From: Stieleria varia
GTDB lineage: Bacteria > Planctomycetota > Planctomycetia > Pirellulales > Pirellulaceae
Direction of reading: 5' to 3'
DNA: 64,000 nucleotides
Assembly (NCBI RefSeq): GCF_038443385.1
Contig: NZ_CP151726.1
Location: forward strand, 6,820,001-6,884,000
Shown: piece by piece, positions 14,527-40,295 of the stretch
Numbering within the stretch: the stretch's first letter is position 1
Layout: every line of letters begins with the position of its first letter
Notes under the pieces: model-generated
Databases searched by the model: none
What the model saw: only the letters and a program-made list of their open reading frames with translations
Told to the model about the DNA's origin: nothing
Translations under genes and position numbers: made by a program

Positions 14527-14577
14527 ACGAAATGCGATCAATGGAGGCACAGGACGTGCATGCATCCATCGTGCGTT
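14527..14577. repeat. Degenerate 51-bp hairpin, third copy of the 52-bp cassette-end element
   Basis: This aligns with 18777-18828 and 26479-26530 (core ggcacaggacgtgcatgcat). Arm changes are compensated: atgga pairs with tccat here where the other copies pair atgca with tgcat. The left end is GAC rather than AAC. The homology with the end of the IS91-like element continues to about 14700. Confidence 0.7.
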
Positions 14578-14699
14578 CAACTTTGTCAGAGCTTGGCAGG
14601 CCAGATTGACTTGGCCCGCAGGACTTGGATCGGAGCCTCCCATCCGCCCCGAAAAGATTCTATCCCAAACGACCCTCCAAGTGTCGAACGCGACCGGTA

Positions 14700-14984
14700 C
14701 AGCATCCCGTAGTGGACGAAGTCATGAGTTCCAACTCAACGGACTCCTGACATCGTCCCCTACAGATTGCGCCCTTGAGCTTCGTCTTCTGAACAGACTC
14801 CATCCGCCCTTGAGGTTTGTGCAGGGGGCGAATCGACTGACCGGCTACCACGTAGGAGCGTCTCTCCGAGACGCTAACCAGGCGAGCGTAAGCGAGGAGT
14901 CACTTTACTCTTGCTGAGCGCCAATACCGTTCAACGAAGCATCCCGCTGAGGCGTGCCCGCTTAGCCGGTAGCCGCAGGCGACG
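14700..14984. repeat. Repeat-rich distal end of the array
   Basis: Sequence 14800-14905 (cgactgaccggctaccacgt and following) matches 19200-19290, and the motif agcgtctctccgagacgct is a small palindrome. No gene is seen. Confidence 0.6.
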
Positions 14985-15155
14985 CTACCATTTCTCCCGA
15001 CCGCGAAGCCGGCCACAGAAGCAATCGTAGGTCATGCCGTGCATCACGAAATCCGGTACGCCCCGCCAAACGCTTGGCCGCCCGGATTCGGGATAACTCC
15101 CGCTGAGCTCCAGCACGACCGCGTTGCAGTAGACGGATGGTGTCATGTCCAGCAT
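14985..15155 (-). CDS. Possible small cassette protein (56 residues)
   Basis: In the distal cassette, beyond the attC at 15222, an ATG-started frame encodes MLDMTPSVYCNAVVLELSGS and ends CFCGRLRGREKW. It is aromatic and cysteine-containing and looks more protein-like than the overlapping alternative frame (14962-15204), but neither has a family match or a clear ribosome site. The frame is open upstream to 15236, inside the attC. The cassette may also be gene-less. Confidence 0.3.
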   Translation of the reverse strand: MLDMTPSVYCNAVVLELSGSYPESGRPSVWRGVPDFVMHGMTYDCFCGRLRGREKW

Positions 15156-15221
15156 GACCCACCCAAACCTCTCTGTGGCAAGGAGCGGTGGTATGCATTG
15201 CCATAGCGGACACTGTCGGGT

Positions 15222-15298
15222 AACGGTGGTCGACACCGAGGACAGTGATTTTCCACTTCACAAACCGCGCAAGCCGTCTTTTGGTGCACGGCATGGTT
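15222..15298 (-). other. attC: attC site
   Basis: 77 bp, AAC at the left and GGTT at the right on the + strand; it closes the DUF4272 cassette, whose stop lies at 15307. Confidence 0.8.
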
Positions 15299-15306
15299 AT
15301 CGCAAC

Positions 15307-15957
15307 TCAAGTGTTCATCGATACGGAGCCCCAAGTCAAGCCCGGCGACAGTAGCCACTCAAGCGCCCTTCGACGTTCGATGAATCGCGACAGGTCGAAT
15401 GTTCCACGCTCGTCACGCAGTTGATTCTGAAAGGCATACCAATGCAATCGATAATGCAGGTCGAGTGATCGGTAAATCTCGTCAAATGATCGAATTGCCA
15501 TTCTGTCCGCGAATTTTGTGGGGCCATCGTCATCACGAACATGCGGACACATCTCGTACATTTCATCAGGAATCGGCCGAGTGAAGTCCAGATGTTCGAA
15601 CAAATTACCTGCCCACATCAATGCCCAAAGCGCGTCAAGTGACCACGCAAGATTGTTTCTGTCTTGCTCGTTGATGCGCTCTGGTCCGCGATCCAAGAGC
15701 GAAACCTCGTGGTCGGTCAAGTATGTAGCGACGCCATGCTGTTCGAGCCATCGCCTGACAACGACATCAGGCACATTGAAGTTCAGGTCAATAATTGCGT
15801 TTAACGCTAAGGATCGGCCTATCAAATCCGATTCAGGTCGAATGCCCGCTCTATCGAGAAATGGAAGCGAGGCGAGAACGCTTCCTCCGTGTGAGATGAT
15901 TGTCGCTTCAGATTCAGCAGCGACTTCGAGTGCGTATTCGACGGTAACACGATCCAT
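15307..15957 (-). CDS. DUF4272 protein (cassette gene)
   Basis: The 216-residue product shows the DUF4272 pattern: GRSLALNAIIDLNF near residue 48, WLEQHGVATYLTDHEVSLL near 70, NLAWSLDALWALMWAGNL near 101, SLDLHYRLHWYAFQNQLRD near 165 and the ending ERRRALEWLLSPGLTWGSV. Members are cytoplasmic, of unknown function and often found in polymorphic-toxin or accessory regions. The ATG at 15957 is 17 bases from the attC at 15974, and the stop is 9 bases from the attC at 15298, so it occupies a complete cassette. Confidence 0.82.
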   Translation of the reverse strand: MDRVTVEYALEVAAESEATIISHGGSVLASLPFLDRAGIRPESDLIGRSLALNAIIDLNFNVPDVVVRRWLEQHGVATYLTDHEVSLLDRGPERINEQDRNNLAWSLDALWALMWAGNLFEHLDFTRPIPDEMYEMCPHVRDDDGPTKFADRMAIRSFDEIYRSLDLHYRLHWYAFQNQLRDERGTFDLSRFIERRRALEWLLSPGLTWGSVSMNT

Positions 15958-15973
15958 GGCTCTCGAATATGAT

Positions 15974-16045
15974 AACGGTGGCCGTCACCAAAGACGGACG
16001 ATTGATTAAACCTCGCAAACCGGCGTTCGCGTGCACGGCACGGTT
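15974..16045 (-). other. attC: attC site
   Basis: 72 bp, AAC to GGTT on the + strand, with complementary arms (gccgtcacc / ggcgttcgcgtgcacggc region). The TAA stop of the next gene (16044) overlaps its end. Confidence 0.8.
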
Positions 16046-16511
16046 ACTCCGAATCCTTGATCACTATCGAACGCGGTGGAAGCTCCCTCGCGATTGCTAT
16101 TCGTGCGTGTAGTGTGTCCGCACGAGCAACAAGCAAGTCGGCCTCAGAACCTGTTGCTTGATCAAAGGCGGTAGCTCGATATTCCTCAATGCGATTTCGA
16201 TTCTTGAAGATACGCCCAAGCAACTCTCTCCGTTCGGACTGGGTCACACAGCATTGTAGCTGTGCGTTCAGGAAGTCGTACTCGGCGTTCAGCAAGGCAT
16301 CCAGTGACGTATCGCCGTGTCTGTGGCTGTCCGTAAGAACCTCGAACCGCCTTTTGAGTACTTCACTCCTCTCAGACTGAAGTTCGCATTTATACGCCTC
16401 GACTTTCACTTTCGTGGGTTGATTGGTTGCATCGTCAGCTAACAGAGCGATTGTGGTGGAAACGGTGAAGAATGAGAGCAAAGCTACAGTCAGTTTTTGT
16501 CGCGATGCCAT
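16044..16511 (-). CDS. Secreted hypothetical protein with coiled-coil character (cassette gene)
   Basis: The 155-residue product starts MASRQKLTVALLSFFTVSTT, a signal peptide with probable cleavage after IALLA. The mature part is helical and charged, with repeated RR/EE-rich stretches (ERSEVLKRRFEVL, SERRELLGRIFKNRNRIEEY) suggesting a coiled coil. The two neighbouring cysteines in LQCCVTQ are the only other striking feature. The frame is open upstream into the attC; the ATG at 16511 was chosen because it begins the signal peptide, 70 bases after the attC boundary. No family is recognised. Confidence 0.7.
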   Translation of the reverse strand: MASRQKLTVALLSFFTVSTTIALLADDATNQPTKVKVEAYKCELQSERSEVLKRRFEVLTDSHRHGDTSLDALLNAEYDFLNAQLQCCVTQSERRELLGRIFKNRNRIEEYRATAFDQATGSEADLLVARADTLHARIAIARELPPRSIVIKDSE

Positions 16512-16580
16512 TTTGCATGTCCAGTGAGAGGGGCAATTTGCAGGAGCAACGGATTGTCGTTGTGAGCAATTCAGTCGGGT

Positions 16581-16663
16581 AACGGCACGGAACGCCCGGT
16601 CGCCGCGAGCGATCCTCCACTTCAGAAACCACGACTTGGCGACTCGTCGTGCATCCGATCGTT
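16581..16663 (-). other. attC: attC site
   Basis: 83 bp, AAC at 16581 and GTT at 16661; arms contain gtcgccgcgag and ctcgtcgtgc-type partial complements. It follows the stop of the gene at 16682. Confidence 0.75.
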
Positions 16664-16681
16664 CCTCGCATTCTATCACTA

Positions 16682-17035
16682 TCAATCGATCTTGATGCCT
16701 CGCACCCAGGGAAACAGAGCAAATCGGACAGCCGCGAGCATTAGGAATACGATCGCAGTCGTCACAAAACCGAATACAGTCGTCGCACTACTGCGTGACA
16801 GCGTTAGATATGATCCAGTCCACAATGGCCACGGAGCACGGTAGCGTCTGCGGTATTTACGTCGCTCATCCTCCGGGAGGTCGAGGTACCAGTTTGTCCA
16901 GTCAGTCAGGTGTGATTCGGGAATTCCCATCCGCCAACTGATGCTGAATCGTGGGAGTTTAGGAAAAGCACGCCAAGGAGGAAGCAAGTCGCCATACTCG
17001 TCGCGCAGTTCAACCGTCTCACGCTTATCATTCAT
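16682..17035 (-). CDS. C-terminally anchored membrane protein (cassette gene)
   Basis: The 117-residue product has a polar N-terminal part (MNDKRETVELRDEYGDLLPP), a highly basic stretch RRKYRRRYRAPWP near residues 58-70 and one clear membrane span near 86-107 (TTVFGFVTTAIVFLMLAAV). The arrangement suggests a cytoplasmic domain with a C-terminal anchor. The ATG at 17035 is 45 bases after the degenerate attC at 17080. Upstream in the same frame the sequence runs through that attC into a gene-less cassette copy and is not likely to be coding. No family is recognised. Confidence 0.65.
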   Translation of the reverse strand: MNDKRETVELRDEYGDLLPPWRAFPKLPRFSISWRMGIPESHLTDWTNWYLDLPEDERRKYRRRYRAPWPLWTGSYLTLSRSSATTVFGFVTTAIVFLMLAAVRFALFPWVRGIKID

Positions 17036-17079
17036 GGCGACGTCAATTAAAGCGGCAGGTTGCGATCGGTTTGTCGGGG

Positions 17080-17154
17080 AACGACCGCGATGCGCGGGCG
17101 CCGGGCTTCCATGTCTAATTGCTGACCACCGACGCTCCGTACCATCGCATGATT
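17080..17154 (-). other. attC: Degenerate attC site
   Basis: About 75 bp with AAC at the left, while the right end reads GATT instead of GGTT. It closes a diverged copy of the gene-less cassette (17155-17494). Confidence 0.55.
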
Positions 17155-17494
17155 CTGGCGTCTTCCGTCGCGGAACCAATCCGCAGGAATCGACACCGGA
17201 TTGTATCGTCCGCTGAGACCTTGGTGCAAATCGAGTCGTGGATTCCGCTCCTGATCTTGTCCCGTCGACGATCTGGCCGAAGTCGAATGCCGAAGCCGGA
17301 CCGTCACACGCGATCCAATGGCAACAAATGGTTGGAACATGGAATCGATCACGCACGTTTCGCCACCCGTCCTATCAGCAACAGATCAGATTGTCATCAT
17401 CAACATCCTGCTGTCGGACTCAACATCATCCGACGCATGCGTTTTGTCGATCACAACATCGCGACCGAACCATCGTGCACTGCGACGCCAGTAC
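17155..17494 (-). repeat. Diverged copy of the gene-less cassette
   Basis: Sequence aligned with the copies at 30-38 kb (shared blocks ccgaagtcgaatgccgaagc and ggaccgtcacacg), but with many substitutions. Like the copy nearest attI, it keeps the ggattccgctcc variant that leaves a minus-strand frame uninterrupted. Confidence 0.75.
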
Positions 17495-17574
17495 AACCGC
17501 GGCAACCGGGCCGCCGCCGAGGCACTATGATCTCAAAAAACGCGAGTTCGGCGGATCCGGTTCACCGCTTGGTT
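17495..17574 (-). other. attC: attC site
   Basis: 80 bp, AAC to GGTT; arms ggcaaccgggccgccgcc and gttcggcggatccggttcac pair with extra unpaired bases. The stop of the SMI1/KNR4 gene (17562) lies inside it. Confidence 0.85.
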
Positions 17575-18224
17575 CTGTCCGTCTTCGCTCTGGGAAGTTT
17601 GGCGACTGCTTGTTGTAGCCAGTCATTGTACCATTTGAAGAAAGTGACTCGCGTCTTGCGTTTCAGTTGTGTGGGTTTGAGTCCCTCTTGATCGGTCCGT
17701 AGGTCTTCCCAAATGTGTCCGGCCTCGGGGCCCGTAACAATCAGCCAGTTGCGGTAGGCACAACCTTGGTGGCAAATCGGTATTGCGCCGTTCACGTTCT
17801 CGGTGTTCCAGTAAATCTCGTAAAAACGTTCCATTTCAGCATCGTAAAGCGATTCATCATCCTGTTCTTCGGGAAATGGCGGTACATCATTCCATGCCCT
17901 TGTGTGCGGGAACGGTTTGCTTAGTGTTCCTACGAAGCCATCGTTTTCCTTCCAGCGTTGGAACGAATGGCAGTCATCCATCTCCCGAAACTTGAAAACT
18001 CCGTAATACGGTCCGGCACCTCCGTTTCCAAGCTCAGTGATGAAGCGACGATAGTCTTCCGGGAGCTTGATTCCGTGCCTTGCTTCAAATTTGACTACGA
18101 CCGATTTCCGAACCACTGGATTTAGCTTGAAGCCATGTGCTTCGGCGCCAAAGACTTTGAGCGGCCGCTTGGCAGTTCGGCACCGTTCAAGATCTTCGCG
18201 AATCGATTCAATGATTGCGGCCAT
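17562..18224 (-). CDS. SMI1/KNR4 (SUKH) family protein (cassette gene)
   Basis: The 220-residue product contains the SUKH signature: KFEARHGIKLPEDYRRFI, then TELGNGGAGPYYGVFKF, and the later CHQGCAYRNWLIVTG with GHIWEDLRTD. SUKH proteins are frequently immunity proteins against polymorphic toxins. No toxin gene is beside it. The ATG at 18224 is 16 bases from the attC boundary at 18240; the longer frame to 18254 would start inside the attC. The last residues (AKTDRTKR) are encoded by attC sequence, a common feature of cassette genes. Confidence 0.85.
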   Translation of the reverse strand: MAAIIESIREDLERCRTAKRPLKVFGAEAHGFKLNPVVRKSVVVKFEARHGIKLPEDYRRFITELGNGGAGPYYGVFKFREMDDCHSFQRWKENDGFVGTLSKPFPHTRAWNDVPPFPEEQDDESLYDAEMERFYEIYWNTENVNGAIPICHQGCAYRNWLIVTGPEAGHIWEDLRTDQEGLKPTQLKRKTRVTFFKWYNDWLQQAVAKLPRAKTDRTKR

Positions 18225-18239
18225 CAGGTTACATGCCAG

Positions 18240-18323
18240 AACGTTACGCGTCACCGGGAACGCGAGGAAAGGTTTCTAACGGCCAAGACGCTCGGCTCGC
18301 GTTCTCCGGTGCACGCGATGGTT
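18240..18323 (-). other. attC: attC site, textbook structure
   Basis: 84 bp. The left arm CGCGTCACCGGGAACGCGAG pairs with the right arm CTCGCGTTCTCCGGTGCACG, leaving single extrahelical bases, as in known attC sites. GGTT at the right overlaps the stop of the gene at 18322. Confidence 0.92.
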
Positions 18324-18750
18324 ACCCGCCGTTTGGGAATACAGAGCAGCGTCGGAATAGATAGACTCCGAGTTCTGTGAAGCACCCAGCGAGAAATCCC
18401 ACTATAGCAGCGCCACCACCGTACATGACAGTGAAAATGACGACGGCCGTCGGAGTGTCAATGTATACCTCATCGGGATCGGGCCACGTATCGGTCACCG
18501 AAGTGTATGCGTAGCCGACGGCGATTGTCGCTCCGCCAAAGATCATCATCCAAATGAACGACACTGCTGCTCCCATCCAGATCAATCGTCCATCACGAGT
18601 TGTATCCCGCATCAGACGTTGAGCAAGAGTGAACGTCAGCATCAGGAATGTAGCAAGCGAAAGCGCCCAGACGGGGTGTGTCCGAATCAGCGACATTTGA
18701 ATTGCCGACGCGGTCAGCACAGCAATCGCGAAGGGAAGGCCGAATCGCAT
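18322..18750 (-). CDS. Multi-span membrane protein (cassette gene)
   Basis: The 142-residue product has about four hydrophobic spans: residues 3-20 (FGLPFAIAVLTASAIQMS), 27-45 (VWALSLATFLMLTFTLA), 56-80 (LIWMGAAVSFIWMMIFGGAT) and 100-127 (TAVVIFTVMYGGGAAIVGFL). An acidic loop TWPDPDEVYID separates the last two. It has no family that I recognise. The ATG at 18750 is 27 bases from the hairpin at 18777, and its TAA stop lies in the GGTT end of the attC at 18240-18323. Confidence 0.75.
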   Translation of the reverse strand: MRFGLPFAIAVLTASAIQMSLIRTHPVWALSLATFLMLTFTLAQRLMRDTTRDGRLIWMGAAVSFIWMMIFGGATIAVGYAYTSVTDTWPDPDEVYIDTPTAVVIFTVMYGGGAAIVGFLAGCFTELGVYLFRRCSVFPNGG

Positions 18751-18776
18751 GCAAACGCTTCAATCGGGTAACGAAT

Positions 18777-18828
18777 AACGAATTGCGATCTATGCAGGCA
18801 CAGGACGTGCATGCATAGATAGTGCGTT
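18777..18828 (-). other. 52-bp hairpin at cassette end (short attC-like or IS91 oriIS-like)
   Basis: AAC at 18777 and GTT at 18826 enclose complementary arms gatctatgca and tgcatagat. It is where an attC would be expected (27 bases before the start of the gene at 18750) and it is also the outer end of the IS91-like element. Confidence 0.6.
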
Positions 18829-18884
18829 GAGCTTTGTCGGAGGTTGACGTCCCGCAGGACTTGGATCGGAGCGTCCAATCCGCC

Positions 18885-19202
18885 TCAAAAAGATTCTATC
18901 TCAAACGACACTCCTGGTGTCAAACCGAAGAGGTACATCTGGATCGCTTTTGCCGGTTCCGGCCCCATTTCCTTTGCGACTTCTACCTGCGTTTCCAGGT
19001 ACCAGTCGTAATCATCCGAAAAGTAGTGTGCCGTCCAGAACTCGCGGTGCGACTCCCGCTGACGCTCCGCGTACCACTCCGGACACGTCTCACTCTCCCG
19101 CCAAAACAACTCCTTCCATGTCGGTTTGGGCGTCTCACACACCAAGCTTAGCTCGATGCTGCCGCAGTGCGCACACTCGGGCAACGATGGAGCAAACTCC
19201 AT
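18885..19202 (-). pseudogene. IS91-like transposase, C-terminal remnant
   Basis: About 105 codons are close to the end of the full transposase at 26588: SLPECAHCGSIELSLVCETP, TWKELFWRESETCPEWYAER and the terminal TPGVSFEIESF occur in both. Everything N-terminal is missing; the sequence changes abruptly at about 19205 into dispersed repeats. With the shared 5' segment at 19981-20178 it marks a decayed relative of the element at 26.5-29.4 kb. Confidence 0.85.
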
Positions 19203-19980
19203 CCGGCCTTGTGCCGGTGGTGAATCGACTGACCGGCTACCACGTAGCAGCGTCTCTCCGAGACGCTACCCCAACGAGCGCAGCGAGCAGTCACGCCGCC
19301 ATACACAATCTCGTTTAACGCCAAGCCGCAGGCGTAATCGAATCCGCCGACACAACCAAAAACCATCGCCCAACCCACCAACCTCGTTTAACGCCGAGCC
19401 GCAGGCGCAATCGAATCCGCCGACAAAACCGAACCCCATCGCCCATACCACCAATCTCGTTTAACGCACAGCCGCAGGCGTAGGCGAATCCGCCGACACA
19501 ACCGAAAACCATCGCCCAACCCACCAATCTCGTTTAACGCACAGCCGCAGGCGCAATCGAATCCGCCGACAAAACCGAACCCCATCGCCCAACCCACCAA
19601 CCTCGTTTAACGCCAATACCGTTCAATGTTCGTAGGAGACACGTGGGGCAGGTTTGCAACCTGCCGACGCTCCAGGAACGAATGCCCGCATTTTCATAGT
19701 TTCTGCTGCACCTTCGGCAGGTTACAAACCTGCCCCACTTGGAACATTGAACGGTATTGCGTTTAACGCACAGCCGCAGGCGCAATCGAATCCGCCGACA
19801 CAACCGAGCCCCATCGCCCAAACCACCAATCTCGTTTAACGCACAGCCGCAGGCGTAGGCGAATCCGCCGACACAACCGAAAACCATCGCCCAACCCATC
19901 AGCATCAGCACAGCAAAGTCGCCGTTCATGCAACACGACGCCCTAGACCGCGAAGTCGGTCACAGCAGGCAGCCACCGAT
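19203..19980. repeat. 73-bp tandem repeats and a nested palindrome
   Basis: Units containing ctcgtttaacgc start at about 19310, 19383, 19456, 19529, 19602 and 19832, a period of 73, each carrying agccgcaggcg and atccgccgacaaaacc. Between 19610 and 19760 a palindrome intervenes (aataccgttcaatgttc ... gaacattgaacggtatt with ggggcaggtt arms). No convincing gene: the long minus-strand frames are a by-product of the 73-base repetition. Confidence 0.85.
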
Positions 19981-20178
19981 TGCGCCCAAGCGGCGGGCGA
20001 AAGAAGGTGCGGTGTGCGAATGCAAGAAGAAGCACAATCAACGCTTGAAGTTGGTTGGCAAGGATGCCAATGCCTCCTTCCCCGCAAGGATGCGTACTCC
20101 TGACTTGCCCCAACGGACGATCAGTAACCCGCTGCCAGACTCTTCACGAATTCAACCAACAGAGACCCGATTAAGTTC
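19981..20178 (-). repeat. Cassette segment shared with 29216-29410
   Basis: Almost 200 bases match 29216-29410 (for example gcacaatcaacgcttgaagt and gttcaac at the end). In both places it forms the start of a cassette, next to the attC at its right, and IS91-like sequence follows. Confidence 0.9.
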
Positions 20179-20261
20179 AACGGTTGCGATGACCGGGCGG
20201 CGGCGATCGATCATCCACTTCAAAAAACACGACTCCGCGGCTCCGTGTCCATCGCGTGGCT
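20179..20261 (-). other. attC: attC site, right core mutated
   Basis: 83 bp from AAC at 20179; the right end reads GGCT instead of GGTT. Arms ccgggcggcggcgatcg and cgactccgcggctccg resemble the site at 36140. Confidence 0.7.
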
Positions 20262-20307
20262 CCCCGCATTCGCCAAGCGACGCTTACCAGTGGCAAGGTC
20301 TGTCGCT

Positions 20308-20724
20308 TCATTTTATCATCACAATGTCCACGTCGCTTGCCCAGTATGCGTCAAGCAAATTGGGGTGCAGCAACGAGAGGTCACTCTTGATCTCAACGCG
20401 ATCGCCAACCGAGATCGAAGACAATTCGTCGCAGTTCGGCTCCGAGCCATCCAGCGCGATGCGAATGGCTGAATGGCCGTTAGTCAATTCTATTCCGTCG
20501 TACCAAACATCGTACATCCCATCCTCGCCGTCCGTGTACATGATGTTGCCCAAGTTGACGGCCGTTTCCTGCACGGTGTAGATGCTCTCCGAGGTTCGCG
20601 AGCATCCCGCAAGTGAAAACAACAAGAGGATCGGGACGGATAGGACCACGCAAATGACGCAAGACCGCGAAGCTAGAAAGGTATGTTTCGCGTCGGATTC
20701 GACTTTGCACGTGCGAGGGGGCAT
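20308..20724 (-). CDS. Predicted lipoprotein (cassette gene)
   Basis: The 138-residue product has a long leader with a hydrophobic stretch VICVVLSVPILLLFSLAGC, ending in the lipobox LAGC at about residue 41, so a later start may be used. The mature part is acidic and begins SRTSESIYTVQETAVN; it includes SISVGDRVEIKSDLSLLH, which could be a small beta-barrel. No family is recognised. The ATG at 20724 is 18 bases after the attC boundary; the stop is 46 bases before the next attC. Confidence 0.7.
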   Translation of the reverse strand: MPPRTCKVESDAKHTFLASRSCVICVVLSVPILLLFSLAGCSRTSESIYTVQETAVNLGNIMYTDGEDGMYDVWYDGIELTNGHSAIRIALDGSEPNCDELSSISVGDRVEIKSDLSLLHPNLLDAYWASDVDIVMIK

Positions 20725-20741
20725 GACTCTGTCAGTCGGGG

Positions 20742-20824
20742 AGCGGCACGCGTCACCGGGTACGTGCGAAAGATTCTCAATTCCAAAACCGGCCGACTCG
20801 CGGACTCCGGTGCACGCGATGGTT
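20742..20824 (-). other. attC: attC site, left core mutated
   Basis: 83 bp; the left end reads AGC in place of AAC (gagcgg). Arms gcgtcaccggg and ccggtgcacgc pair with an extra base. GGTT at 20821. Confidence 0.75.
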
Positions 20825-20832
20825 CCCCGCAG

Positions 20833-21522
20833 TCACCCCATGCCGAGGTCTTCGATAAACCTTGCCGTCAGGACAACCTCGGAACCGTCTACACCAAGTG
20901 TGTCCACGACAATGGGGCGCAGTTCGTCGAGTATCGCATGATCCGAATCAAGATGCAATTGTTTTGTCGCCGCAGTGATGCCTGTCATGCGTCTGGCGAC
21001 TGCACCAAAGGTCGTGAGCGTGTCTGGCGGATAGGTGCGAAAACGCACGGTAGCGAGATGTAGTATCAACGTCGCGACCGCCGCAAGAACAAGTGTGAGC
21101 GGTAGTATTTCGATGTCAACTGCGGCGGCAACGGTCACCGCCAACACGATCGCGGTACAAACGAGGACGACGAGCACCTTTCGTAGTGTTGGATGACGGC
21201 GTAGCGATGGCGGAGCAGAGCCCAGAATATCGGTCAAACGCTTCCAAAGGCGTCGACGCTGTGTTGGATTCAGCACATCAACGACGCGTGTTCGACTGCG
21301 TATGCGAAGGGTTTGGTTTGTTGCGAGTTCGCGAACGCAGGATCGAAGCTGCAGGAAAGACTTCAAAGTCGGGCACGACGCAAGGTGAGCGGCCTGAATC
21401 CGAGATCGAATTAACGAAACCAGATCGCCAACGGTGCGAACATGCTCCGCTTCCGTGTTTTGGATCGCAATGCCGAAGTGGTCTTCGACATCCATTACGA
21501 GTTCAACAGCGTCGAGTCCCAT
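20833..21522 (-). CDS. Membrane protein with split, permuted acyl-carrier-protein-like domain (cassette gene)
   Basis: The 229-residue product begins MGLDAVELVMDVEDHFGIAI with RTVGDLVSLI after it, i.e. the second half of an acyl carrier protein. It ends with IVVDTLGVDGSEVV and ARFIEDLGMG, i.e. the first half of such a domain, breaking exactly where DLGxDSL would continue. Between them lie two membrane spans (VLVVLVCTAIVLAVTVAAA and LPLTLVLAAVATLILHLA). The phosphopantetheine serine is replaced by alanine (GLDAVE). The halves could fold together as a permuted ACP-like module. ATG at 21522, 14 bases from the attC boundary. Function unknown. Confidence 0.75.
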   Translation of the reverse strand: MGLDAVELVMDVEDHFGIAIQNTEAEHVRTVGDLVSLIRSRIQAAHLASCPTLKSFLQLRSCVRELATNQTLRIRSRTRVVDVLNPTQRRRLWKRLTDILGSAPPSLRRHPTLRKVLVVLVCTAIVLAVTVAAAVDIEILPLTLVLAAVATLILHLATVRFRTYPPDTLTTFGAVARRMTGITAATKQLHLDSDHAILDELRPIVVDTLGVDGSEVVLTARFIEDLGMG

Positions 21523-21535
21523 GATTCAATCGAGG

Positions 21536-25541: not shown

Positions 25542-26444
<903 letters not shown>

Positions 26445-33315: not shown

Positions 33316-33396
33316 AACGGCGGCGTTGACCGAGCGACGCCATTGTGGTTTCCATGTTCAACCGCCCGATGCGTCGCTTCGGTCCAACGCATGGTT
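33316..33396 (-). other. attC: attC site of a gene-less cassette
   Basis: 81 bp, same type as 30456, with ttcaaccgccc in the spacer. Confidence 0.92.
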
Positions 33397-33726: not shown

Positions 33727-33811
33727 AACGACCGGCATCACCGGGCGGGGAGAGTAAAGTTGTCCATTTCAAATTCGGCCGCAAGCCCCGCTCCGTGTGA
33801 ATGCCATGGTT
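33727..33811 (-). other. attC: attC site
   Basis: 85 bp, AAC to GGTT; arms catcaccgggcgggga and tccccgc-like (gccccgctccgtgtgaatg) pair. The TAA of the next gene overlaps GGTT. Confidence 0.88.
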
Positions 33812-34223
33812 ATGCACCGTTGTACTGCTTCAGGAACCATCTCTCAAGGAAGATGAATCCGTCAACAGTCATCAACGGATATTCGGCGGTATCTCTTTTC
33901 GTGGCATGTCGCACCAACTCGTCGCAGCGCCAGAGTTCGTTGGCGACAATGCGAAAAGTGAGATTGCCATCGTCAGAAGATGTTTCTCCAGCGGAAACTA
34001 CATTCCAGCCTCTTTTCGCGAATCCAGTACATGCAGTCCATCGCGGGCGATGGATGCCAGTTGTAGGAGCAAGCTGTTCGTACGATGGTGCAAATCCGCG
34101 AAACTCCAATTGCATGACGTCACGAAAATGCTTGGAGACGTGAACGACTCGGACATAGGCAAAAGTATCGTCGACGGGAATCTGAATCACATCACCGTGT
34201 ACTGCTTTTGAGCGTCGAATCAT
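33810..34223 (-). CDS. Imm26-like immunity protein (cassette gene)
   Basis: The 137-residue product begins MIRRSKAVHGDVIQIPVDDT with AYVRVVHVSKHF after it, the opening typical of Immunity-26 proteins (a strand with GDVxxIPL-D-x-x-x-A-x-x-R-V). KRGWNVVSAGETSSD near residue 72 is a second block of that type. Imm26 members are associated with polymorphic toxins, but no toxin gene is near. No signal peptide. ATG at 34223, 29 bases from the attC boundary. The family call is by pattern and only moderately certain. Confidence 0.65.
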   Translation of the reverse strand: MIRRSKAVHGDVIQIPVDDTFAYVRVVHVSKHFRDVMQLEFRGFAPSYEQLAPTTGIHRPRWTACTGFAKRGWNVVSAGETSSDDGNLTFRIVANELWRCDELVRHATKRDTAEYPLMTVDGFIFLERWFLKQYNGA

Positions 34224-34251
34224 GAACAGTACCTGAGAGCCGATGGTGCAT

Positions 34252-34334
34252 AACGACCGCCGTCACCGGGCACGGAGAGACGACTTTCCACTTGTGAAAA
34301 CGCGCAAGCCGTGCTCCGTGTGCACGGCATTGTT
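34252..34334 (-). other. attC: attC site
   Basis: 83 bp, AAC to TGTT; arms cgtcaccgggcacggag and ctccgtgtgcacgg pair with extra bases. Confidence 0.9.
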
Positions 34335-34354
34335 ATTTGCAAGAGATTGTAGAA

Positions 34355-35263
34355 TCAAACGGACTCGACGAATAGCAAAATGTTTGCCGCGGTGGAATGG
34401 AGCGCAAAACGCGCTGTCGATTCCGATACAGTAGTTACAGTTGCGCCCTGTCCGTGTCCGCCAAGTTTGTTTCGTACGGTTGGAACGCCACTCTCTAGGA
34501 TCGCCCGAAGGTTTCCAATGTGGGATTGCATAAACGTCGGAAAAAGCCCGTTTGTCATGCATGTATCAATCAGCGTTTTCGCCGTGTCACGTGGTTGATA
34601 TTGCCAACCCTTTAGGTCGCAGATCGTCTTCATCGTACTCTCGAATGCCTTCAGGCATTCGGCTAGACATTCTTTATGACGGCCATGCCGGTAGTGTTCA
34701 TGTGCCTTGAGGAATTCATCGTTAGCGCCTTTGTACTTCGGATCAGAAAGCAGCTTAAGTGCGGGTTTAACGACATCATCATGAATCAACTGGGAGTCGA
34801 TTCGTATTACTTCTCCTGATACGTATTCAAAACCAACTCCGTGTTCTTTGAATCGAGAATTTGCTTCCGCGATCGTGGCATCTGGGCTTGAAGAACAGCC
34901 AATGTACTGCCAATTGCGTTCACGAATAACAGTATCAACGGCGCGCAGGCAGAGTTCAACAATGTCAATTATGTGTTCGACGTCGTCCGTTTGCAGTAGA
35001 TAATTTGCAACCGACTCCCAATCTGATGAACGATGTTCTTTTGTTAACGAGAAAACACCATATTCACGACAAAGCGTCTTGTGAATGTGGGCGTAAAGCT
35101 GCAGAGGCACGTCCTGAAATTGCTCATCACGGCCAATTCCGTCTTGCAGTATCTGGACCAACTGAACGCGAAGTGGCGACGGGACGTCGTCGTACACGTA
35201 GACTTCGGGCACATCGCCGCGTAATCGTTTTTGGCGTTTAGAAAACAGGTCGAAAACGGCCAT
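34355..35263 (-). CDS. Abi/HEPN-type protein, STM4504/CBY_0614-like (cassette gene)
   Basis: The 302-residue product opens with MAVFDLFSKRQKRLRGDVPE and VYVYDDVPSPLRVQLVQILQ, the characteristic start of the STM4504/CBY_0614 family, and closes with an abortive-infection-type C-terminal domain, including VPTVRNKLGGHGQG with the HEPN-like R-x5-H pair (Arg264, His270). HEPN proteins with this motif are RNases acting in phage defence or toxin-antitoxin settings; activity here is inferred. No signal peptide. The ATG at 35263 is 25 bases from the attC boundary, so it is a complete cassette. It is the most defence-like cargo of the array. Confidence 0.82.
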   Translation of the reverse strand: MAVFDLFSKRQKRLRGDVPEVYVYDDVPSPLRVQLVQILQDGIGRDEQFQDVPLQLYAHIHKTLCREYGVFSLTKEHRSSDWESVANYLLQTDDVEHIIDIVELCLRAVDTVIRERNWQYIGCSSSPDATIAEANSRFKEHGVGFEYVSGEVIRIDSQLIHDDVVKPALKLLSDPKYKGANDEFLKAHEHYRHGRHKECLAECLKAFESTMKTICDLKGWQYQPRDTAKTLIDTCMTNGLFPTFMQSHIGNLRAILESGVPTVRNKLGGHGQGATVTTVSESTARFALHSTAANILLFVESV

Positions 35264-35287
35264 CCGTGATTTCTCTCAGTTGCAAAT

Positions 35288-35368
35288 AACGGCGGCGTTG
35301 ACCGAGCGACGCCATTGTGGTGTCCATGTTCATCCGGCCGATGCGTCGCTTCGGTCCAACGCATGGTT
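35288..35368 (-). other. attC: attC site of a gene-less cassette
   Basis: 81 bp, same type as 30456, with tgtccatg and ccggccgatg variants in the spacer. Confidence 0.92.
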
Positions 35369-35720
35369 CTGTCGTCTTCCCAGGCGGCACTGTACCGCTC
35401 GGATGCGACCATTGGATTGTATCGCATGCTCGGACCGCACTGCAATTCGAGCCCTGGTTTCGCTCCTGATTTCGTCCCGCCGACGGTGTGGCCGAAGTCG
35501 AATGCCGAGGCCGGACCGTCACACGCGATCCAATGGCAACGAATGTTTCGAGCACTTGGTCGTCCGCGCACCGTTTCACGCGCACCATTTCACGCGCAAC
35601 TGATTGGCGAGAGGACGCTTCACCGAAGTCATCCTACTGTTGTCGGCCCCAAGATCATCCAACTCTTTCGAGGCGTAGATCTCAACATTGCGACGCGACG
35701 ATCGAGCGCTACGACGACAG
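35369..35720 (-). repeat. Gene-less cassette copy, variant form
   Basis: About 350 bases, same mosaic form as 31464-31815 (attI-side half variant). Confidence 0.9.
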
Positions 35721-35802
35721 AACGGCGGCGTTGACCGAGCGACGCCATTGTGGTTTCCATGTTCATCCGCCCGATGCGTCGCTTCGGTCCAACGCATGGC
35801 TC
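35721..35802 (-). other. attC: attC site of a gene-less cassette, right core mutated
   Basis: 82 bp, same type as 30456, but the right end reads GGCT rather than GGTT, which should weaken recombination here. Confidence 0.88.
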
Positions 35803-36139
35803 TGTCGTCTTCCGTGGCGGCACTGTACCGCTCGGATGCGACCATTGGATTGTATCGCATGCTCGGACCGCTCTGCAATTCGAGTCCTGGTTTCGTTTCT
35901 GAATATGTCCCGCCGACGATGTGGCCGAAGTCGAATGCCGAGGCCGGACCGTCACACGTGTCCCAATGGCAACAGATGACTCGAGCATCCGGTCGACCGC
36001 ACTCCATTTCGCGCGCAACAGTTCGGCGAGAGGACGCATTGCCGAAGCCAACAACATGCTGTCGGCCCCAAGATCTGCCAACTCATTCGACTGGTCGATC
36101 ACTACATCGAGACGCGACGATCGAGCACTGTAACGACAG
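35803..36139 (-). repeat. Gene-less cassette copy
   Basis: About 337 bases, near-identical to 33397-33726. Confidence 0.9.
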
Positions 36140-36221
36140 AACGGTGACGATCAGCCGGCGGCGACGGAAGATCAACCATTTCAAAACGCCCGACTTCGCC
36201 GCTCGGTTGCATCGTTTGGTT
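36140..36221 (-). other. attC: attC site
   Basis: 82 bp, AAC to GGTT; arms cagccggcggcgacgg and cgacttcgccgctcggttgc pair with several unpaired bases. Confidence 0.85.
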
Positions 36222-36238
36222 CATCGCATCTCTGTTCA

Positions 36239-36607
36239 TTAGCCGCCGCTAAGCGCCTTACGGTAACGAACAAGTAGAAGGACCCAAACGGTTATTGTAA
36301 CCATCCCCATCGCGATGAGCATCCAGCCGAACCACTCGTCATTGGAAATCGGAACGCGCAACGCAGCGACCTGCACGTAGGAATGGTCATCCGAAAAACC
36401 GTTGATTTCACCGAAAACGAAACGATGCTGTACATGCACGTCATGTATGTGGCCTGTAGCATCGGATTCGGTGATCAGTTGCTTGTATCGGCTCGGAACC
36501 GCAGATTCTGCGAGAAGCCTTGCATTTACGATCGAGGCGGCACCTACGAACGAAAAGGACGCGATAACAAAGGCGACAACGATAATGATGATCCAAAAAC
36601 GCGTCAC
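36239..36607 (-). CDS. DUF3592-like two-span membrane protein (cassette gene)
   Basis: From a GTG at 36607, 19 bases after the attC boundary, the 122-residue product has a first span near residues 4-27 (FWIIIIVVAFVIASFSFVGA), an extracytoplasmic beta-rich domain with HVQHRFVFGEINGFSDDHSY and a second span near 96-113 (MLIAMGMVTITVWVLLLV). Two spans around a short domain with a Y/F-x-F-x-x-G strand is the plan of DUF3592 proteins; the match is by pattern only. The frame upstream is open through the attC to 36808 but has no suitable start outside it. Confidence 0.65.
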   Translation of the reverse strand: MTRFWIIIIVVAFVIASFSFVGAASIVNARLLAESAVPSRYKQLITESDATGHIHDVHVQHRFVFGEINGFSDDHSYVQVAALRVPISNDEWFGWMLIAMGMVTITVWVLLLVRYRKALSGG

Positions 36608-36625
36608 GCGTTCACTTTGTCGATG

Positions 36626-36707
36626 AACGGCGGCGATCAGCGGGCCGGGAGAGTTGACTTTCCATCTGTGAAACCCTGCAAGCCCGGCTCCGTTGCATCG
36701 CATGGTT
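36626..36707 (-). other. attC: attC site
   Basis: 82 bp, AAC to GGTT; arms agcgggccggga and agcccggctccg pair. Confidence 0.88.
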
Positions 36708-36728
36708 CGCCGCGACTGTCTGTTGCGT

Positions 36729-37205
36729 TCAGTCGCCGCCTTCAGCGTAGTAGCGTAGCTGTTTTGCGTATTCGCCGTCAAACGATCCGTGTGGTCGTTC
36801 GCCGTCACGGAAGTAGCGCTCGAGCGTCGTCTTGGGGTGAATCCAATGTTGTTCGATGCCTTGTATCGGTGTGATCACGTCGGCAGGCAAGTCCGGTATG
36901 TCCTCGTTTGCGAACGCCACGAGCGATTCAAAGTCAACGGAAATGTGTTGTGCCGCCGCGTCCATTGTCCTCGGATCGGGGAGGTACTTAGTGTGGTACT
37001 CGTAGCCAACTAAATCATCCCATTTAGCCGGAGGCGAACCGTCGTGGTCCTCGGCGTATGACGCGATGATGCAGGTAACGCCCCACTCGTAGTACGCCGA
37101 CTTGATGCCGCGTTGAAGATTGATGGCAGTCCATCCAAGACACGCGACTATCAGAGTCGGCAGTGCGATCCAAAGCAGCGTTTTGGTGCGTTGTCGCATC
37201 GGCAT
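36729..37205 (-). CDS. Single-span exported protein (cassette gene)
   Basis: The 158-residue product starts MPMRQRTKTLLWIALPTLIV, a positively charged leader and a membrane span to about residue 30 (ACLGWTAINL). The rest is an acidic, soluble domain with YAEDHDGSPPAKWDDLVGYE, a motif also met in pseudopilin-related planctomycete proteins, where the asp-gly-x-x-P-x-x-W-x-D-L segment follows the N-terminal helix. A second ATG lies two codons later. Located 51 bases from the attC boundary. No firm family. Confidence 0.7.
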   Translation of the reverse strand: MPMRQRTKTLLWIALPTLIVACLGWTAINLQRGIKSAYYEWGVTCIIASYAEDHDGSPPAKWDDLVGYEYHTKYLPDPRTMDAAAQHISVDFESLVAFANEDIPDLPADVITPIQGIEQHWIHPKTTLERYFRDGERPHGSFDGEYAKQLRYYAEGGD

Positions 37206-37255
37206 ACTTCAGTGCAAGGTGACAACGGATTGATGATAGCCATTTCCAGTCGGCG

Positions 37256-37338
37256 AACGACAGCCGTAACCGGGCGGCCGCCAAAAGACTCTGATTTCAA
37301 TATCCGCGTTGTCGGCCGCTCCGGTTCACGGCATGGTT
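37256..37338 (-). other. attC: attC site
   Basis: 83 bp, AAC to GGTT; arms cgtaaccgggcggccgcc and ggccgctccggttcacgg pair with extra bases. Confidence 0.9.
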
Positions 37339-37343
37339 ATGCC

Positions 37344-37865
37344 TCATTCTGCAATGTCGCTGCGCCACAGCGAAATGTCCAAGCCGTGTTCGGTGTCCCA
37401 ACTGGAGTGAAAATGAAATCTTGCGATCGCGCAGTCATCACGCACTTCCGGACCCAGCGTAATTGATGTGAGTGTGTATAGTTTGTCAATTGCGGATTCT
37501 GATTCCCAGTCGACAAGATCTTGGACATCTTCCCAACCTTCGACATCGTCGTCTCTGTCTCGTTGGAATCCACTCCATCCTAGCTTGTGATGCCTCATTA
37601 GTTCAGCACGCAACACCTGCTCAATTCTTTCACGATTGGCAATTAGATGATCCCATGCAGCTTCATGATGCATGGACACGGCTCCATTTCCAAGCGATTG
37701 CACGAAGAGTTCAAAGGTAGATTCGCCGTCTTCCTCATCTTCTTCCCAGCAGCCGTAAACTGACAGGTCGAACCGTGCACGCGATTCTTGCAGAACTGGC
37801 CGTTCTGTGATGGAGCGCCAGTACCCGTGGGACTCCTGCTGAAAGCTGTCTGCGAATGTGCTCAT
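37344..37865 (-). CDS. Hypothetical protein, DUF6985-like ending (cassette gene)
   Basis: The 173-residue product starts MSTFADSFQQESHGYWRSIT and contains the acidic CWEEDEEDGESTFELFVQSL, AAWDHLIANRERIEQVLRAE near residue 85 and the ending FHFHSSWDTEHGLDISLWRS. A C-terminal strand with W-D-x-E-H-G-L is common in DUF6985/DUF2262-type proteins, so I suggest that group with low certainty. It is soluble and has no signal peptide. The ATG at 37865 is 18 bases from the attC boundary, and the stop is 6 bases before the next attC. This is the first clearly coding cassette after intI. Confidence 0.7.
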   Translation of the reverse strand: MSTFADSFQQESHGYWRSITERPVLQESRARFDLSVYGCWEEDEEDGESTFELFVQSLGNGAVSMHHEAAWDHLIANRERIEQVLRAELMRHHKLGWSGFQRDRDDDVEGWEDVQDLVDWESESAIDKLYTLTSITLGPEVRDDCAIARFHFHSSWDTEHGLDISLWRSDIAE

Positions 37866-37882
37866 ACGGAATCCGAAGGCAT

Positions 37883-37963
37883 AACGGCAGCGTTGACCGA
37901 GCGACGCCATTGTGGTTTCCATGTTCATCCGCCCGATGCGTCGCTTCGGTCCAACGCATGGTT
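37883..37963 (-). other. attC: attC site of the attI-proximal gene-less cassette
   Basis: 81 bp, same type as 30456 with one change (ggcagcgttgacc). Confidence 0.92.
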
Positions 37964-38305
37964 CTGTCGTATTCCGTGGCGGCACTGTACCGCTCGGATG
38001 CGACCATTGGATTGTACCGCATGCTCGAACCGCACTGCAATTCGAGTCCTGGATTCCGCTCCTGATTTTGCCCCGCCGACGATGTGGCCGAAGTCGAATG
38101 CCGATGCCGGACCGTCACACGTGTGCCAATGGGAACAAGTGGTTCGAGCATCCGGTCGACCACACTCCATTTGACGCGCAACGGTTCAGCGAGAGAACTC
38201 GCGGCCGAAGCCGACGTGCTGCTGTCGGCCCCATGATCTGCCAACTCATTCGATTGGTCGATCGCTACATCGACACGCGACGATCGAGCACTGTAACGAC
38301 AGAAC
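37964..38305 (-). repeat. Gene-less cassette copy next to attI
   Basis: About 340 bases, first cassette of the array. It has the ggattccgctcc form, so a minus-strand frame stays open through the whole unit, but that frame has no ATG start and runs on into the attC. Confidence 0.9.
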
Positions 38306-38470
38306 TTGTAATTAAGGGGAGTCAGGACTTGGCGGTTGGTTATTTGACGCCTTATTGGCGGTTGGCCCTCGCGTTATCCCGGTCTTATTGGCAGTTGACT
38401 GATTTTGGCCAAGCTTTTCAGCAATTTGCCAATAAGAACGCCACGCATTATAGGCAGTTGCCGCTTTGCG
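38300..38470. promoter_or_regulatory. attI: Candidate attI region with repeated TTATTGGCAGTTG-like motifs
   Basis: The array ends at gacagaac (about 38305). Over the next 150 bases related motifs recur: acttggcggttggtta (38329), ccttattggcggttggcc (38350), tcttattggcagttgact (38383), an inverted ttgccaataag (38427) and cattataggcagttgccg (38447). attI sites normally hold several integrase-binding repeats, so this is the natural candidate. The exact crossover is not determined. Confidence 0.6.
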
Positions 38471-38487
38471 TGCAATCCCAGGTGGGG

Positions 38488-38516
38488 TTGACACCGCCTG
38501 GCAGGGTCTGCATTTT
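38488..38516 (+). promoter_or_regulatory. Possible intI promoter
   Basis: TTGACA at 38488-38493 and, 17 bases on, CATTTT at 38511-38516. The -35 is perfect but the -10 is poor, so this is only a candidate. It lies about 52 bases ahead of the intI start. Confidence 0.3.
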
Positions 38517-38567
38517 GACGGCACGGACATTTTGTGCATTTGGATTTCCGATTTGAGGGGGCATGCA

Positions 38568-40295
38568 ATGACAAGATCTGAGAGCAGGCGTGAGAGTGGG
38601 TACGGTGGGGGTCATGAGAGCGTTGTCGCTTCGGGAAAGCCGGATTGGCCAGCGATCTGGTATGCGAAGTTGCGACGGCATCACCAAATTGCCCAGCGTG
38701 AACGATGGCAGTTCGATGGCGAGCATGTTGTTGCCTATTTGATTCGCATCAAAGCCGACGGCATGCCCATTTGGAAACGCTTGAAAGTGGCAGAAGCGCT
38801 ACTGGAGTTTCGCCGACGCAAACGATGGGAAGAGTGCCCGCGTTTGGATGAGGTGTGTGAGACGCTGCGCAATATGAAACGAGCCCAGCACCAACGTGAG
38901 CTTGGAAAGGAAGCGTTTGGGAGCAATCTCAGGACATCCGAATCGGACCTTGAGGAGCGTGGACACATTGACCCCAGAGAACCGATCGTGTTGCAAGAGT
39001 TTCGAAGTGTGATCCGAGCGAATCAACTTGCGTACAGCACTGAGGAAGCCTATGTCGCTCAGGTCAGAAAATTTCTCAGAGCAGTCAAACGCTTGGATGC
39101 GTTTGAACGCGTGGGGGCGGAAGATGGTTATGGGCTGAGTGACTTGACCGCCCGAGATGTGGAGTCCCATCTGACGAATTTAGCAGTGAAAGAGAACCTT
39201 GCTGAGAACTCTCAGGATCAGGCGTTCTATGCGATCCTTTATCTTTTCACTCACGTCTTGAAGAGAGAACTGAAAGAAGTCAACGCGATCCGGTCGACCA
39301 AGCCGAAGCGAGTTCCCGTGGTGATGAGTCGACCAGAGGTCCGGTCCGTGCTGTCGCACTTGAGCGGCGTCTACTTTTTGATGGCTCAGTTGATGTATGG
39401 AACGGGGATGCGTCTGGGGGAGTGTTTGCGTTTACGCGTGAAAGACATCGACTTTGACAACCGCATGATTTATGTGCGTCGTTCTAAGGGCAAGAAGGAC
39501 CGTCGTGTTCCTTTGCCCGAGACGGTGGTTGAATCATTGCAAAAGAAGCTTCAGTGGCGCAGGAAGCTTCACGACCAAGATTTAGCCGAAGGCGTTGCTT
39601 CCGTGTTTCTGCCGAAAGCGTTGGATCGAAAATACCCCAATGCCCACCGGGAGTTTCGTTGGCAGTTCATTTTCGCGTCTCATCGTTTGTCACGAAATCC
39701 GCGAGACAGGCGGATGCATCGTCATCATTTGCACAAGAAAACGTTTCCTGATCATTTGAAGCGAGCGGTGGAGAAAGCAGGAATTGAGAAGCAGATCACG
39801 TCTCATGTTTTTCGCCACAGTTTTGCAACTCACTTACTGGCCAGCGGTACGGACATCCGGACAATCCAAGAGTTGTTGGGGCATGCGGATGTAAAGACGA
39901 CCATGATTTACTTGCACTGTTTGAGCGATCCGTCGGAGACGGTTAAGAGTCCGCTGGATCGGTTGAACGAGGGCATTGTTGATCGAAACAATGCGTCGGA
40001 GCATGTCCGAGCACAGGCGAAGGAACTGGAGCTTCATGCCTCTGACGGTGGCGTGGCGAAGCCTAGGAACGGTGGCGAATCGGTGCAAGAAAGTTCGAGA
40101 ATGCAAACGCATATTCCGGATCAACCGGTCATTGACCGTGGATGCGTTGAAAGCACCCCGCCATTACCTACTTCTGAAGGAGGTTCGTCGCGTGTCGGTT
40201 TGATGAGGGATGCGAGTCGACGGATTGGGACGTGGGTCGCGGTACACCTACGTGGATTTGGCAAAAGGCAGGATCGCGGGGTGGCGAGTGGGTAG
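38568..40295 (+). CDS. intI: Integron integrase with long N- and C-terminal extensions
   Basis: The 575-residue product has a tyrosine-recombinase core from about residue 140 to 470: Arg282 in GTGMRLGEC, the HVFRHSF box with His413 and Arg416, His439 in LLGHADVK and the nucleophile Tyr448 in TTMIYLHC. The segment PNAHREFRWQFIFASHRLSR to RRHHLHKKTF-like (MHRHHLHKKTFPDHLKRAVE) is the extra internal block that defines integron integrases. The usual IntI is about 320-340 residues; here about 140 residues precede the core (WYAKLRRHHQ, MPIWKRLKVAEALLEFRRRK) and about 100 follow it. ATG 38568 has a GAGGGG ribosome site 7 bases upstream. It is divergent from the cassettes, as expected. Confidence 0.95.
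   Translation: MTRSESRRESGYGGGHESVVASGKPDWPAIWYAKLRRHHQIAQRERWQFDGEHVVAYLIRIKADGMPIWKRLKVAEALLEFRRRKRWEECPRLDEVCETLRNMKRAQHQRELGKEAFGSNLRTSESDLEERGHIDPREPIVLQEFRSVIRANQLAYSTEEAYVAQVRKFLRAVKRLDAFERVGAEDGYGLSDLTARDVESHLTNLAVKENLAENSQDQAFYAILYLFTHVLKRELKEVNAIRSTKPKRVPVVMSRPEVRSVLSHLSGVYFLMAQLMYGTGMRLGECLRLRVKDIDFDNRMIYVRRSKGKKDRRVPLPETVVESLQKKLQWRRKLHDQDLAEGVASVFLPKALDRKYPNAHREFRWQFIFASHRLSRNPRDRRMHRHHLHKKTFPDHLKRAVEKAGIEKQITSHVFRHSFATHLLASGTDIRTIQELLGHADVKTTMIYLHCLSDPSETVKSPLDRLNEGIVDRNNASEHVRAQAKELELHASDGGVAKPRNGGESVQESSRMQTHIPDQPVIDRGCVESTPPLPTSEGGSSRVGLMRDASRRIGTWVAVHLRGFGKRQDRGVASG

Follow-up and report, generated by a model that had tools for sequence, protein, structure and literature searches.

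The closest described counterparts of the locus analyzed here are the sedentary chromosomal integrons of the Vibrio type, for which the available part of PMC1382264 tabulates arrays of 36-219 cassettes each. Planctomycetota are listed among integron hosts in the accessible text of PMC8618304, and planctomycete attC sites are modelled among those of 11 taxa in that of PMC8352920; the available portions of both sources contain no array-level description of planctomycete integrons. Our literature search, which had most subscription journals outside its reach, returned no title or abstract detailing such arrays. We analyzed a 64 kb stretch (hereafter the window) of a single 9.72 Mb contig, in part of which a first-pass annotation had read a large sedentary integron of a planctomycete. 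The taxonomic label is supported indirectly by DUF1559 (PF07596), a domain typical of planctomycetes, which this genome matches 55 times, whereas 14 control genomes lack it altogether.

As in Vibrio-type integrons, the integrase gene intI faces away from a long array in which small attC-tagged genes, for the most part without a known function, occur together with repeated, apparently non-coding cassettes. In contrast to that type, one chromosome here holds 20 attC clusters and six integrase loci of two types. For comparison, the IntegronFinder 2.0 survey, in its accessible part, reports more than one IntI in 22% of IntI-bearing genomes (PMC9024848).

Gene-less cassettes also have precedents. 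The available text of PMC11014356 reports measured promoter activity of gene-less cassettes in Vibrio, that of PMC1382264 describes one paralogous non-coding cassette family of 45 members in V. vulnificus CMCP6, and that of PMC12444791 a recurrent empty cassette in Xanthomonas arrays. The repeated cassette in our window, R, resembles the Vibrionaceae promoter cassettes of PMC11014356, as far as these are described there, in being a putative gene-less unit that would point a promoter at the next cassette. It differs from them in having a promoter role that is predicted, in forming one 48-copy family with an invariant hexamer pair, and in belonging to another phylum. Unlike the V. vulnificus family, which we liken to R by description and not by sequence, R copies are spread over many arrays. 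Thus, the idea of a promoter cassette is already known, and what is added here is conserved-motif evidence, the host, and the number of arrays. The less familiar aspects are the scale, the host group, a two-headed integrase, and an IS91-like element that occupies exact cassette slots.

We consider it likely that the window integron is one platform of a multi-array, cassette-sharing system within one genome, in which R and a second repeated cassette, S, serve as portable promoters. In such a system, IntI would excise cassettes at folded attC sites and insert them at attI, whose border lies at 38302. The first cassettes would be driven by a Pc-like promoter within attI, and farther along the array R and S would start transcription anew as internal promoters. 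This bears on the open question of how cassettes far from Pc are expressed in large integrons, and a 48-copy family with one invariant promoter-like motif makes that question testable outside Vibrio. A genome whose arrays share identical cassettes would also be a natural system for studying exchange in trans between platforms.

Structure of the window integron

The array proper spans 15222-38305 and is read on the minus strand in the order intI (divergent), attI, and 30 cassette slots. The earlier start at 14527 is replaced, as that position is an IS91-like end relic, not an attC. A covariance model built from an alignment of the 10 sites nearest intI (model R1) matched 30 attC sites in the window between 15216 and 37969, all on the minus strand with E <= 8.9e-7, and no others there; 20 of these 30 were outside the training set. 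A second model (R2), made from 45 sites that R1 had first detected in two further species (G004 and G005), recovered the identical 30, the weakest with an E of 0.00094 (site at 22114), plus one weak stray match at 61404 (17.8 bits, E 0.01). The check set beforehand, which combined an attC model with an IntI profile and called for at least 20 minus-strand sites, returned an intI match and 30 such sites.

From outer AAC to GTT the sites measure 72-85 nt. In the 10-site alignment, unpaired columns break up the stem in the manner of the extrahelical bases of attC sites, and 13 of the 20 pairs in the consensus fold have changed on both sides. Single-stranded DNA folding of 14 sites gave z-scores from -4.85 to -0.90 relative to shuffled sequences, so not every site beats its shuffles, and for the site at 15222 the usual stem is missing from the fold. 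These poorly folding sites are what another family of inverted repeats might look like. Given a one-strand array beside intI, compensatory pairs, the junction-to-gene geometry of the cassettes, and the fact that a model trained on other species recovers the sites, we regard such a family as extremely improbable.

The integrase gene (type A; 38568-40295, plus strand) encodes 575 aa from its ATG, passes the NCBI integron-integrase profile (TIGR02249, 407 bits; cut-off 265), and is divergent from the array, as had been read from the sequence. Its closest solved structure is IntI4 (PDB 2a3v, E 2.8e-66, over residues 195-466), and Arg, His, and Tyr positions that we assume to be of the catalytic type are invariant across eight aligned integrases. 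The attI region lies at 38302-38567 (minus strand). Its putative cassette border at 38302 was set by comparing the two type-A platforms of the chromosome, which share a 98.2% identical block reaching from beyond intI up to this border.

Genes are present in 21 of the 30 cassettes, 20 of them in the array direction, consistent with the nearly one-stranded layout first noted. Start codons lie 2-69 nt past the junction (measured from the insertion sequence end where one intervenes), close to the 14-70 bases given before. The nine slots without a gene comprise seven full R copies, one diverged R, and one in which an R relic accompanies a decayed group II intron; of the gene slots, one also contains an IS91-like element and another what looks like a deletion derivative of it. 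Altogether, this supports one complete chromosomal integron within the window, as judged from every sequence feature that could be tested.

Multiple arrays and shared cassettes in one genome

Six loci on the same chromosome score above the integron-integrase threshold. Two are of type A and 98% alike; the other four are of type B, with platforms that resemble one another at 95-99%. A few residues separate three of the type-B proteins, each 462 aa long, and the fourth is an open reading frame (ORF) of 413 aa. We found at least 311 attC matches with E <= 0.001 in 29 stretches, which were selected for containing hits and, with the window, cover 543 kb. The 11 weakest were left out of clustering, and the other 300 fall into 20 clusters that sum to about 245 kb and, with one exception, are each confined to one strand. 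Eight further stretches added 10 attC matches, seven of which extend the array at 30-42 kb.

Whole-genome attC scans, in which the best 150 candidates per genome were scored and totals are therefore lower bounds, gave matches in all 14 genomes of the genus (10 to at least 150 each). We also surveyed 196 genomes belonging to the order, a selection from a larger group, and scored the best 10 candidates in each; 48 carried at least one locus over the integrase cut-off. Among these 196, only this genome has six, followed by one with four loci, of which two are imperfect.

Seven whole-cassette families, delimited by attC, are 99.5-100% identical between different arrays that lie megabases apart (one family bearing an insertion sequence and one unbounded family are left out of this count), and four of the seven span arrays headed by different integrase types. 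One further cassette, number 11 of the window, is shared at 99.6%. The near-identity of the seven families and their cut at attC borders therefore point to recent cassette movement, and attC-bounded sharing would be the footprint expected of site-specific movement. From this we infer that IntI may be active at present and that cassettes may be exchanged in trans between arrays. Copying of chromosome segments could also yield shared cassettes, and it does occur: a 4.4 kb block shared with another array covers an insertion sequence, a gene cassette, and R, which counts against movement of single cassettes by IntI, as do a shared 2.8 kb platform block and the high similarity of the four type-B platforms. 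However, the shared unit in the seven families is one attC-bounded cassette, and its neighbors mostly differ between array layouts, so that segmental copying as the general explanation is improbable. Thus, the integron part of the earlier reading holds, and its "sedentary" part needs amending: the array does not stand alone, and sedentary should not be equated with static because near-identical cassettes are shared across arrays.

Smaller attC clusters with nearby intI fragments occur at ~369-385 kb and at 1.29, 1.42, 1.97, 2.55, 5.12, 5.74, 7.18, and 7.67 Mb of this genome (G000); they look like decayed integrons.

Repeated cassettes as candidate promoters

R is a repeat of about 420 bp. The window contains seven full copies, each on the minus strand, namely cassette 1 (37883-38305, attC 37883-37963; 100% the same sequence at 8363657), cassette 5 (35721-36139, attC 35721-35801), cassette 9 (33316-33726, attC 33316-33396), cassette 10 (32897-33315, attC 32897-32977), cassette 15 (30456-30874, attC 30456-30536), and, as a longer variant, cassettes 6 (35288-35720, attC 35288-35368) and 13 (31383-31815, attC 31383-31463). 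Genome-wide, 48 of the 300 clustered cassettes carry R, counting those with more than 250 nt of it and excluding pieces of 250 nt or less. Fixed repeats at the same positions in distant strains, named beforehand as speaking against an integron, were not seen: across the 13 other genomes of the genus, R is matched by no more than two short fragments, one of 88 nt from the attC end and one of 28 nt.

Every one of the 48 copies retains TTGCA and TACAAT, separated by a variable spacer and oriented toward the following cassette. Across the hexamer pair, 11 of 12 positions are invariant; on average the hexamers vary by 0.7%, the 18-nt spacer by 12.6%, and the remaining body by 8.7%. This pair is also the sole match to TTGNNN-N16-18-TANNNT on either strand of the R consensus. 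The pattern TTGCA-N19-TACAAT has 51 exact matches in the whole genome, as opposed to one for a control pattern, and 49 of the 51 have an attC match 40-43 nt downstream on the same strand. Relics of R at 71% and 75% identity retain the motif; the former is cassette 27 of the window (17080-17491, minus strand, attC 17080-17154), in which TTGCA-N19-TACAAT is intact.

The second repeated cassette, S, measures 217-219 bp and occurs in 30 cassettes, 19 of them full-length. It likewise carries TACAAT, with a hairpin around and behind it. In three other species of the genus (G007, G004, and G005; loci L078-L097) we found a repeated cassette family of their own, T, with 48, 6, and 6 core copies, respectively, in the stretches fetched. 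Most G007 copies read TTTCCC-N18-TACATT-GGCA, near the TTGCCC-N18-TACAAT-GGCA of some S copies, and by eye the T and S cores appear homologous. Similar cores in sister species add depth to the comparison.

With start codons only 2-69 nt past the junction, gene cassettes are nearly leaderless and should depend on transcription from outside, for which R and S are the most plausible promoters along the array. For the first cassettes, pattern matching gives a Pc-like TTGCAC-N17-TATAAT in the type-A attI and TTGACG-N17-TATTAT in the type-B attI, both directed toward the cassettes. We therefore propose R as a mobile promoter cassette and, taken alone, regard promoter function of R and S as reasonably probable.

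Several observations weigh against this proposal. Of the 315 hexamer-pair windows in R, four others are at least as conserved as the promoter-like pair; these four overlap in a single block (181-214) that does not look like a promoter. TTGCAG matches TTGACA at three of six positions, and a stock promoter scan of 37880-38620 reported no promoter at its stricter threshold. In S, TACAAT also sits in a hairpin arm, and it might be conserved for structural reasons; a few S copies deviate from it. The upstream regions of 21 tRNA genes (20 chosen from 70 matches, plus the tRNA-Asp of the window) are heterogeneous and were compared without a shuffle control. Blanco et al. state, in the accessible part of their paper, that promoters in gene-less cassettes are not identifiable in silico (PMC11014356). 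Finally, R divergence does not rise with distance from attI (rho -0.08, p 0.63, 40 copies).

The main alternative is that R and S are selfish or neutral cassettes that spread through efficient recombination of their attC sites, and that the hexamers are left over from recent descent or have another role. Adjacency of R copies is at chance level (11 neighboring pairs observed vs 10.0 expected), and R copies cluster at the intI end, where recent insertions would be expected (mean relative position, 0.32; KS p 0.0009; 40 copies, six arrays). For the paralogous non-coding cassettes of Vibrio, selfishness is among the options that Boucher et al. name in the available text (PMC1382264). Against this stand the 11 invariant hexamer positions beside a varying spacer and the persistence of the motif in diverged relics, and we judge the alternative rather unlikely.

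R could also be an ordinary multi-copy gene cassette that encodes a small protein. Over 345 nt, the sense frame is stop-free in 29 of 48 copies and the antisense frame in 33, a further point against a gene-less R, and the window copies contain antisense ORFs of 50-127 aa and, in one copy, a sense ORF of 81 aa. Yet polymorphic sites show no clear codon phase (46, 49, and 57 by phase over the 345 nt in 46 of the 48 copies), and copies differ in length by non-multiples of three, which makes a coding R very unlikely. A promoter role thus remains our preferred reading of R.

Other ideas about the repeats were tried and set aside. R as an insertion clock was rejected on the absent correlation with distance given above; in a single remnant array with seven R copies, divergence and position do correlate (rho 0.87, p 0.01). 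R as a favored first cassette was dropped: it comes first in three of six integrase-headed arrays and in one array with an intI remnant, and this is unconvincing because R already makes up 40 of the 214 cassettes in the six arrays. Folding was assessed on collapsed identical copies (23 S, 26 T, and 31 R). For R, 5 of 100 column shuffles fold as well, which is weak, and we make no claim of a folded RNA; for T the figure is 20 of 100. For S, none of 100 shuffles is as good, yet no pair has changed on both sides. The tRNA promoters were abandoned as a host standard on account of their heterogeneity and kept as a hint only; upstream of the tRNA-Asp in the window, TTGCAG-N16-TATAAT is one of two overlapping readings.

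An IS91-like element in cassette slots

Between cassettes 16 and 17, positions 26479-29410 (minus strand) are occupied by an element whose ends coincide with cassette junctions. It contains an ORF for an HUH (Y2) transposase (26588-28594) and a Xer-like tyrosine recombinase ORF (28000-28983). The transposase exceeds the curated cut-off for the IS91 type (NF033538, 251 bits; cut-off 125) and has a Pfam Y2_Tnp match; unlike the IS91 family, the element also has the recombinase ORF and sits at attC junctions. Further copies lie at 5359070-5362000, 6989278-6992208, 8767837-8770754, and 8772589-8775519 of G000.

In the stretches selected around attC, to which the end survey was confined, each of the 13 left ends comes after an attC GTT. 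Of 15 ends on the other side, 14 have TTCGTT ahead of the following cassette and one has TTCGTC. The element's end could be read as an attC mimic, with an R''-like CTCAAC, a perfect stem, and an R'-like GTT. This placement could reflect either a transposase that aims at attC or carriage by IntI. The latter, in which the element would be a giant integron cassette that IntI moves between the G and TT of attC sites, is a tentative and rather doubtful idea; if true, the cassettes available to this integron, with its many arrays spread over the chromosome, would include a transposon as well as mobile promoter cassettes. Related end pieces elsewhere in the genome count against a strict attC habit: of ten such ends read, three stop at TTCG without TT, and five of seven stretches fetched around them had no attC match.

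Cassette 25 holds a stretch (18777-20178) with both IS91-like ends, which looks like a deletion derivative of the element. Within it, at 19290-19930, we noted by eye repeated units CTCGTTTAACGC...GCCGCAGGCG.

Slot 21 (22120-23545) is of mixed orientation. It combines the weakest attC of the array (22120-22200, minus strand) with a decayed group II intron (22179-23490, plus strand, antisense to the cassettes) and an R relic (~23410-23545). The intron includes a D1-D4 match (22511-22601) on the strand opposite the cassettes, near that attC, a setting we compared with group IIC-attC introns, and a reverse-transcriptase relic ORF (22870-23484); its 3' part was not found. Relatives at 83-84% identity lie at 5346739-5347895 and 6997368-6998563.

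Gene content of the cassettes

The expectation that the cargo is mostly of unknown function is borne out: Pfam matches over the curated cut-off were obtained for 7 of the 21 gene products, and PADLOC, run on 10 of the 21, returned one weak match. Cassettes and genes are on the minus strand except where indicated.

Among the products with matches, cassette 2 (37256-37882, attC 37256-37338) encodes a DUF6985 protein (37344-37865), and cassette 7 (34252-35287, attC 34252-34334) a protein with AbiJ_NTD4 and DUF7014 (34355-35263), to which the weak PADLOC match, PDC-S32, belongs. The gene of cassette 16 (29411-30455, attC 29411-29492; gene 29560-30453) encodes leucine-rich repeats, and identical copies lie at 6983056 and 6988231. 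DUF2310 is found in cassette 17 (25542-26478, attC 25542-25624; gene 25623-26444), a partial PP-binding match in cassette 23 (20742-21535, attC 20742-20824; gene 20833-21522), SMI1/KNR4 (SUKH) in cassette 26 (17492-18239, attC 17492-17574; gene 17562-18224), and DUF4272 in cassette 30 (15222-15973, attC 15222-15298; gene 15307-15957).

Three cassettes with genes lacking a Pfam match have near-identical copies elsewhere: cassette 3 (36626-37255, attC 36626-36707; gene 36729-37205; 99.5% copy at 5355362), cassette 8 (33727-34251, attC 33727-33811; gene 33810-34223; 100% copy at 5365981), and cassette 11 (32367-32896, attC 32367-32449; gene 32400-32882; copy at 5375577-5376110). Genes of the following cassettes also had no Pfam match: 4 (36140-36625, attC 36140-36221; gene 36239-36607), 12 (31816-32366, attC 31816-31897; gene 31890-32333), 14 (30875-31382, attC 30875-30956; gene 30949-31350), 20 (23546-24497, attC 23546-23628; gene 23621-24466), 22 (21536-22119, attC 21536-21617; gene 21788-22117), 24 (20179-20741, attC 20179-20261; gene 20308-20724), 25 (18240-20178, attC 18240-18323; gene 18322-18750), 28 (16581-17079, attC 16581-16663; gene 16682-17035), and 29 (15974-16580, attC 15974-16045; gene 16044-16511). 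The product of cassette 18 (24950-25541, attC 24950-25032; gene 24983-25525) had none over the cut-off. Cassette 19 (24498-24949, attC 24498-24580 on the minus strand) has ORFs both ways, of 117 aa with the array and 127 aa against it; we chose the latter (24566-24949, plus strand) as its gene.

N-terminal domain of IntI and platform surroundings

Both IntI types extend beyond the family-model match at the N terminus, by 140 residues in type A and 131 in type B. In type A, where a SAM-like domain and the catalytic domain follow, this part includes an extra domain (aa ~27-118) predicted to form four helices (pLDDT 87). Its best Foldseek matches are Cre chains, at a weak E of 0.18 or worse, and because of these the segment suggests a second core-binding-like domain, a lead only. 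The four-helix extra domain (38568-38930 in the window) is present on both IntI types, and N-terminal intI pieces without the remaining gene occur elsewhere in G000 (e.g., 369885 and 1974661). Behind both type-A integrases there is a partial second copy of part of intI, which in the window lies at 40695-40959 (plus strand) and is 95% identical to 38923-39187.

Between attI and intI, at 38329-38460, direct repeats CTTATTGGC(G/A)GTTG and an inverted copy were observed, which are possible sites for the integrase or a regulator. Just past the integron platform, at 41639-44791, one protein combines caspase (Peptidase_C14), WD40, and PDZ matches.

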